Shown here piece by piece: positions 14,725-15,299 of a stretch of DNA of 64,000 nucleotides. Source of the stretch: an uncultured Pelagibacteraceae bacterium (lineage in GTDB: Bacteria > Pseudomonadota > Alphaproteobacteria > Pelagibacterales > Pelagibacteraceae); assembly GCA_902592325.1 (NCBI GenBank), contig CACJEC010000001.1:1-64000 (forward strand), in the 5' to 3' direction. The notes beneath the pieces were generated by a model. It was not told the origin of the DNA, did no database searches, and saw only the letters and a program-made list of their open reading frames with translations. The stretch's first letter is position 1. The number at the start of each line of letters is the position of its first letter. The translations under genes were made by a program, and so were the position numbers.

Positions 14725-14753
14725 CTTGAAAAATCTAATTTAATACCCAAATA
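14725..14753 (+). promoter_or_regulatory. putative sigma32 (RpoH) promoter for hsp20
   Basis: CTTGAAA (14725-14731), 14-nt spacer, CCCAAATA (14746-14753), resembling CTTGAAA-N11-16-CCCCATnT. Confidence 0.6.
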
Positions 14754-14757
14754 TTAC

Positions 14758-14812
14758 TTAAGTCGCCTAATGGGGCTTAAAAAAATAAACTTGCTTAACA
14801 AAGGAGAATATT
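14758..14812 (+). promoter_or_regulatory. putative ROSE-like RNA thermometer in hsp20 5'UTR
   Basis: Hairpin 1: TTAAGTC(G)CC-TAAT-GGGGCTTAA (14758-14780). Hairpin 2: AATA (14784-14787)/TATT (14809-14812) plus TTGCT (14791-14795)/AGGAG SD (14802-14806). Confidence 0.5.
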
Positions 14813-15259
14813 ATGACAAGTAAGGATCTATCTATATTTAACTCACTTAGACCATTTTCAATTGGTTTTGACGATATGTTTGATCAATTTGAAAATATGC
14901 TAGGTAACGGTGCTTTGACCATGCAATCAAATTACCCACCTTACAACATCAGAAAAGCTGGAAAAGACAAGTACGCAATTGAAGTTGCGTTAGCTGGGTT
15001 TAGTAAAAATGATGTTGAAGTAGAGTTTGAAGATAATTTATTAACCGTCAGAACTAAACAAATAAGAAAATCTGAGGATGATAAAGTTGATGGAGAAATT
15101 ATTCATAAAGGTATTTCTCAAAGACAATTTGCAAGATCATTTACAATTGCTGATGATGTAAAGGTAAATGATGCTGAGCTTAAAGATGGTCTTTTAACGA
15201 TATCTTGTGAAAGAATTATTCCTGAACATAAAAAGAAAAAGCTTATTGAGATAAAATAA
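14813..15259 (+). CDS. small heat shock protein, Hsp20/alpha-crystallin family
   Basis: PPYNIRKAGKDKYAIEVALAGFSKNDVEVEFEDNLLTV ... DGLLTISCERIIPEHKKKK, typical IbpA-like ACD. Confidence 0.95.
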   Translation: MTSKDLSIFNSLRPFSIGFDDMFDQFENMLGNGALTMQSNYPPYNIRKAGKDKYAIEVALAGFSKNDVEVEFEDNLLTVRTKQIRKSEDDKVDGEIIHKGISQRQFARSFTIADDVKVNDAELKDGLLTISCERIIPEHKKKKLIEIK

Positions 15260-15270
15260 CTTTTGCCTTG

Positions 15271-15294
15271 CTTGCGGGGATAAATCCTCGCAAG
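15271..15294. terminator. convergent intergenic hairpin, possible bidirectional terminator
   Basis: CTTGCGGGGA-TAAA-TCCTCGCAAG, 10-bp stem with one G-T pair; T-tracts weak. Confidence 0.55.
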
Positions 15295-15299
15295 TAAAA

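Follow-up and report, generated by a model that had tools for sequence, protein, structure and literature searches.

A probable compact ROSE-like thermometer on the Pelagibacter hsp20 mRNA and a conserved complementarity between its coding start and 3′ untranslated region

The leader of the hsp20 gene in a Pelagibacter (SAR11) genome (43 contigs, 0.93 Mb in total) is very probably a compact, two-hairpin ROSE thermometer controlling Pelagibacter hsp20, to which a clade-specific pairing constraint between codons 2 to 5 and the 3′ untranslated region (3′UTR) is added. The leader occupies positions 14758 to 14812 on the forward strand of the 64,000-nucleotide stretch of DNA that was analyzed (the window), directly before a small heat-shock gene (14813 to 15259, forward strand; 148 aa; PF00011 HSP20, E 3.1e-17), and the named relatives of the window genome are Pelagibacteraceae. 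As a thermometer, the SAR11 element adds a new, minimal form to a known family, and its layout has a precedent. The complementarity of codons 2 to 5 with the 3′UTR is less expected than the thermometer; judging from sequence conservation, it is likely an unexpected second layer of control.

A sigma32 (RpoH)-type promoter lies immediately upstream (14725 to 14753, forward strand), with the −35 element CTTGAAA at 14725 to 14731, the −10 element CCCAAATA at 14746 to 14753, and 14 nt between them. The sequence-only reading had placed a heat-shock promoter of this form here, and both its presence and its geometry hold across relatives. The TTGAA core of the −35 element was found in 114 of 115 distinct relatives; among these 114 loci, for which the script required TTGAA to be present, the spacing to the −10 element was 14 nt in 106, and the distance from the −10 element to the hairpin I core GTCGCC was fixed at 10 nt in 101. 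The −10 consensus across relatives was CCCATATA. The sigma32 consensus is quoted as NNCTTGAA-N(13-18)-CNCCATAT (PMC3669281), and the hsp20 promoter fits it, with CTTGAA-N(13-18)-CNCCATAT near the predicted transcript start. As had also been expected for SAR11, the window genome encodes rpoH (TIGR02392, 361 bits). Because the promoter-to-hairpin geometry is fixed, transcription probably starts at or beside hairpin I. A search of three genomes with the sigma32 pattern found a match in the window's own genome, and the matches were too few for defining a regulon. In one family (f9; L192, L193, L194, and L204), a ROSE-like hsp20 leader stands behind a sigma70-like promoter region with TTGACA/TGTCAA inverted repeats and not a sigma32 promoter.

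Hairpin I (14758 to 14780, forward strand; TTAAGTC, a bulged G at 14765, CC, the loop TAAT, GG, and GGCTTAA) had been described as a 9-bp hairpin with a single bulged G, and its nine pairs, bulge, and UAAU loop were recovered at exactly those coordinates, with strong covariation. In an alignment of 105 distinct leaders (A1), standard pairs filled 97.8% of cells over the nine pairs; double-change cells numbered 47 compared to 9.8 in shuffles, and the covariation score was 0.274 compared to 0.155. The TTAAG/CTTAA pairs, for which an alignment across relatives had been proposed, belong to this hairpin. Sliding the partner strand by one base lowered pairing to 49 to 62%. Three of the pairs never vary among the 105 leaders. 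Across 34 diverse sequences, eight of the nine pairs were changed on both sides, in an alignment (A2) that was itself fitted to the structure and in which one row (L165), misaligned to a middle hairpin, was discounted. At the apex (bulged G, CC..GG) there is almost no variation, more conservation than base pairing alone would require. The leader therefore has the stable 5′ hairpin upstream of the Shine-Dalgarno (SD) hairpin that is a feature of ROSE elements.

In the second hairpin, the anti-SD arm CUUGCUU (14790 to 14796, forward strand) contains the ROSE motif UUGCU (14791 to 14795) and faces the SD sequence AGGAG (14802 to 14806, forward strand), its partner in the ROSE_3 alignment, leaving G14793 bulged or in a non-canonical contact as in other ROSE elements, where U(U/C)GCU faces the SD with an unpaired or non-canonical G. 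Of 97 distinct leaders in the order, 96 have UYGCU opposite the SD, against 2.7% of shuffled leaders, and the one leader without it is cut off by a contig end. Within the motif only the second position varies, between U and C, which is exactly Y; the UCGCU form is found across the whole sister family and, within the family itself, in some genera. The earlier pairing of TTGCT with AGGAG was therefore correct in its coordinates and is conserved in relatives. The pair closing this hairpin changes on both sides: Pelagibacteraceae have C-G, whereas rpoH leaders and the sister family have A-U. Within the genus, there is hardly any variation at the core SD pairs and so no scope for covariation there; the proposed leader alignment bore out the motif and its U/C variation. 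The pair next outward of the closing pair was formed in 40 of 88 distinct combinations, compared to 29.4 (SD 3.4) when partners were re-dealt, and none of 300 re-pairings of the lower-stem arms was as stable as the natural combinations, although neither control removes relatedness. These arms are AAUA (14784 to 14787, forward strand) and UAUU (14809 to 14812, forward strand), which can pair right up to the ATG as had been proposed; support for this weak lower stem is moderate. At one locus (L173), an upstream ATG precedes the anti-SD arm (ATGTACTTGCTTAACAAAGGAGGAAAAATG) just upstream of hsp20, and the leader there could be read as an N-terminal extension.

A focused Rfam scan of 91 bases ranked ROSE_3 (RF02523) first of 4227 families (23.3 bits, E 0.0025), with an alignment running end to end over 14757 to 14818. 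The search with the Rfam ROSE models that had been suggested for this leader thus named the best family but fell short of its gathering threshold, at 23.3 bits against 43; this threshold, like the 45 bits of RF00435, is a database cut-off and not a biological defining feature. Neither a broad scan of 1.5 kb nor a scan of outgroup loci gave a ROSE match on the leaders; the ROSE matches came from short focused scans and from one scan of more distant loci. A sister leader, L031, was matched by both ROSE_3 and RF00435, with scores of 22.9 and 21.4 bits that lie below the gathering thresholds, and ROSE_3 was again the best of all families. On an hsp20 leader that is more distant and was picked up by a widened SAR11 model, ROSE_3 reached 34.5 bits. 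Three RF00435 matches in other Alphaproteobacteria (L168 to L170), likewise below the gathering threshold, share with the SAR11 leader a hairpin I stem in which a bulged G precedes CC-loop-GG, as well as a UUGCU ahead of the SD. Conservation of UUGCU, the ranking of ROSE_3, and a hairpin I in common with other alphaproteobacterial ROSE elements together favor the ROSE-like reading first made from the sequence.

It is useful to set the element beside its closest known counterparts. The classical ROSE of RF00435 (for example, Bradyrhizobium hspA ROSE1) has in common with it the bulged G of hairpin I, CC-loop-GG, the UUGCU/AGGA hairpin, and the hsp20 gene, whereas the Pelagibacteraceae element is without the middle hairpin(s). 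The sister family in the order retains three hairpins, a middle one among them, with an extended UAAUCGCU/AGGAUUA stem. We conclude that the Pelagibacteraceae element is probably a shortened ROSE that has lost its middle hairpin. The two-hairpin layout is also that of RF02523, and the short ROSE-like thermometer of Pseudomonas ibpA (PMC3669281) resembles the SAR11 leader in having two hairpins in a small heat-shock leader of ~60 nt, U(U/C)GCU with an extra G opposite the SD, a stable hairpin I, and a sigma32 promoter. Compared with ibpA and ROSE_3, the SAR11 element is shorter (~55 nt) and very A/U-rich, has a weaker SD stem, and scores 23 bits in Rfam against the cut-off of 43; unlike ibpA, it is followed by codons 2 to 5 that are complementary to the 3′UTR. 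A compact (~55 nt) ROSE variant combined with sigma32 control had been claimed from the sequence, and both parts are supported, but the combination is not new because Pseudomonas has a two-hairpin ROSE under sigma32 (PMC3669281). A 2019 survey reports an unspecified "possible RNA thermometer" in SAR11 strain HIMB5, for which its main text names no gene (PMC6429828); this candidate comes from the same clade and may be this very element. A 2009 survey of Pelagibacter RNAs leaves a thermometer unmentioned (PMC2704228).

Folding predictions gave a different picture of the isolated RNA. The window RNA alone folds no better than its own shuffles (z −0.57), and nearest-neighbor folding leaves about 75 to 87% of its SD unpaired; over 5 to 42°C it shows no clear transition, and occlusion is no greater than with shuffled arms. 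As SD accessibility is flat with temperature and occlusion shows no excess, these predictions are not counted as support; nearest-neighbor models give no score to non-canonical contacts of ROSE elements such as G-G. In silico, deleting the bulged G of the anti-SD arm or changing U14792 to C closes the SD, which mirrors stabilizing mutations that in combination lock the P. putida element off (PMC3669281), but this is only a consistency argument. We infer thermosensing by the hsp20 leader from its family membership and gene context.

How widely the element occurs was assessed with two covariance models. Model R1, built from leaders of the family, nearly all of them from Pelagibacter, detected the element upstream of hsp20 in five further families of Alphaproteobacteria and, in two genomes, upstream of rpoH. 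Three low-scoring R1 matches (L196, a hairpin followed by a T-run; L198, inside an open reading frame; and L201) were rejected as chance. The widened model R2, whose training set included two of five rpoH leaders and many hsp20 leaders, returned 22 matches at E ≤ 0.01 in 385 alphaproteobacterial genomes, and all 22 end at a start codon: that of hsp20 in 16 cases, rpoH in 5, and dnaK in 1. Because the model carries no gene information, this association with heat-shock genes independently supports a function in the heat-shock response. Leaders of this kind before rpoH and dnaK are among the less expected findings. The compact ROSE-like leader lies directly before rpoH in five genomes from four families (L197, L199, L205, L208, and L210; about 1501 to 1566 of the extracted loci), and a ROSE-like leader directly before dnaK (L211, about 1501 to 1562) is the weakest R2 match (E 0.0096). 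SAR11's own rpoH has no such leader. A literature search, with subscription journals mostly outside its reach, turned up no description of ROSE-type leaders upstream of rpoH or dnaK.

The second constraint, which the sequence-only reading had not included, concerns the start of the coding sequence and the 3′UTR. The nucleotides CAAGUAAGG in codons 2 to 5 (14817 to 14825, forward strand) are the exact complement of a 3′UTR motif, CCUUGCUUG (15266 to 15274, forward strand; consensus CCUURCUUG, where R is G in the window), which starts about 3 to 11 bases after the stop codon in Pelagibacter-clade loci. All nine pairs, G-U allowed, are formed in 99% of 109 such loci, so the start region and the 3′UTR of one mRNA are conservedly complementary. 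Other positions of the coding sequence (CDS) fare much worse against the motif (43% for the overlapping neighbor, 17% for the next, and a median of zero), and the nine-of-nine match is seen at no other non-overlapping position. Codons 2, 3, and 4 (ACA AGT AAG) are synonymously invariant; among 115 testable codons compared over 111 loci, no others vary so little, even though AGT, with 16% of use, and AAG, with 25%, are minority codons. The third base of codon 5, just outside the match, varies freely. Codons 2 to 4 are thus apparently frozen because of the 3′UTR match, whose boundary falls exactly at codon 5; pairing of the leader arm with codons 3 and 4 was considered as the cause and dropped, the 3′UTR match explaining the freezing better. 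Genera with other codons at the start, in which the codon 2 to 5 arm is absent, lack the 3′UTR motif as well, so that where one arm is missing, so is the other. Among the few changes within the clade, R is A or G opposite U, the coding variants in L020 and L098 are A-to-G opposite U and keep the pairing, and L025, the only locus changed in both arms, keeps eight pairs.

The motif shares the 5′ strand of a 13-bp hairpin directly after the hsp20 stop (15268 to 15297, forward strand; −23.9 kcal/mol with flanks). This strand varies only at R and the 3′ arm has five forms, and the upper stem has compensatory variants (TGGGG/CCCCA, CGGAG/CTCCG, and CGAGG/CCTCG); no U-tract follows the hairpin. In other SAR11 genera, another hairpin (GGTAGAGGC...GCCTCTA) takes this position after the hsp20 stop. 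The motif partly overlaps its own hairpin, and the 5′-3′ duplex would compete with the hairpin base. The duplex energy would be about −15 kcal/mol at 15°C and −11 kcal/mol at 37°C, and folding of the full-length message gave a mean probability of about 0.24 for the 5′-3′ pairing against about 0.5 for the local 3′ hairpin, without temperature dependence. The complementarity probably reflects either 5′-3′ pairing within the hsp20 mRNA or a 3′UTR-derived regulator. In Staphylococcus aureus icaR, the 3′UTR pairs with the translation start region of its own mRNA (PMC3868564), likewise through a short complementary motif; the SAR11 case differs in that the partner is codons 2 to 5 and not the SD, the motif lies a few bases past the stop, the pairing is combined with a thermometer, and it is known here from sequence.

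Several other explanations deserve consideration. It is possible, if doubtful, that CCUURCUUG is the seed of an sRNA cut from the hsp20 3′ end, which would pair in trans with hsp20 and perhaps other mRNAs. A seed lying directly upstream of a strong 3′ hairpin would resemble 3′UTR-derived sRNAs, and the 5′ strand is conserved beyond the needs of the hairpin; against this, the hairpin is without a U-tract, and intramolecular pairing accounts for the same facts. Alternatively, codons 2 to 5 might be frozen for translation efficiency, with the 3′UTR match a coincidence fixed by descent. Well expressed genes often show constraint on their start codons and the clade is closely related, but we think this unlikely: the frozen codons include the minority codons AGT and AAG, the sites around the two arms vary but the arms themselves do not, the few changes that do occur keep pairing (R opposite U; A to G in L020 and L098) or touch both arms (L025), and the match is absent from every non-overlapping CDS position.

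The leader itself has also been weighed in other terms. The CUUGCUU arm could mainly pair with codons 3 and 4 (AAGUAAG) instead of the SD, making the leader a start-codon hairpin or a two-state switch. In the window these seven consecutive pairs belong to the minimum-energy fold, nearest-neighbor folding prefers codons 3 and 4 as the partner of the arm, a local comparison gives −7.6 against −3.0 kcal/mol at 15°C, and codons 2 to 4 are frozen. This pairing is available in only part of the family, however, whereas UYGCU faces the SD in all genera; the genus-wide prediction at 20°C favors pairing of the arm with the SD (0.40) over pairing with the codons (0.16), and the frozen codons are better explained by the 9-nt 3′UTR match with its boundary at codon 5, all of which makes codon pairing an improbable main role. 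It is very unlikely that the leader is instead a protein-binding or autoregulatory element, read for example by Hsp20 or an RNA-binding protein at hairpin I, with loop and bulge kept for recognition and no thermometer. The near-invariant apex of hairpin I (bulged G, CC..GG) would suit such a role, and an action on mRNAs has been suggested for SAR11 proteins such as CspE/CspL (PMC2864753), yet the SD-facing UYGCU is conserved equally, the same bulged hairpin I belongs to other ROSE elements, and the two-hairpin design recurs before hsp20, rpoH, and dnaK, as temperature control predicts.

Under the compact ROSE reading, RpoH would start transcription at or next to hairpin I, which would serve as a stable folding and spacing element. 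The second, weak hairpin, in which CUUG(bulge)CUU would hold AGGAG imperfectly, would allow only poor ribosome binding in the cool and open upon warming, raising translation, as the behavior of the family suggests. In the Pelagibacter clade, codons 2 to 5 would then pair with CCUURCUUG past the stop, most likely within the mRNA or through a 3′-end fragment. Such 5′-3′ pairing would cover the initiation region and might damp translation, protect the message, or make translation depend on an intact message.

Taken together, we lean slightly toward a broader view, in which two layers of RNA control act on the hsp20 mRNA, namely a minimal ROSE at the 5′ end and, throughout the clade, a 9-bp closure by which codons 2 to 5 would be frozen to act as a regulatory RNA arm, and in which the same ROSE design governs rpoH and dnaK in other small-genome Alphaproteobacteria. 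Because the compact element also extends to leaders of rpoH and dnaK, the heat-shock regulator itself may be controlled by RNA thermometers in some Alphaproteobacteria. The complementarity between coding start and 3′UTR, frozen across about 109 distinct loci, offers a cleanly testable mRNA whose ends are apparently co-selected. Through a conserved thermometer on hsp20, the way in which SAR11 cells sense warming water would become directly testable; these cells count among Earth's most numerous and are generally portrayed as having little regulation.
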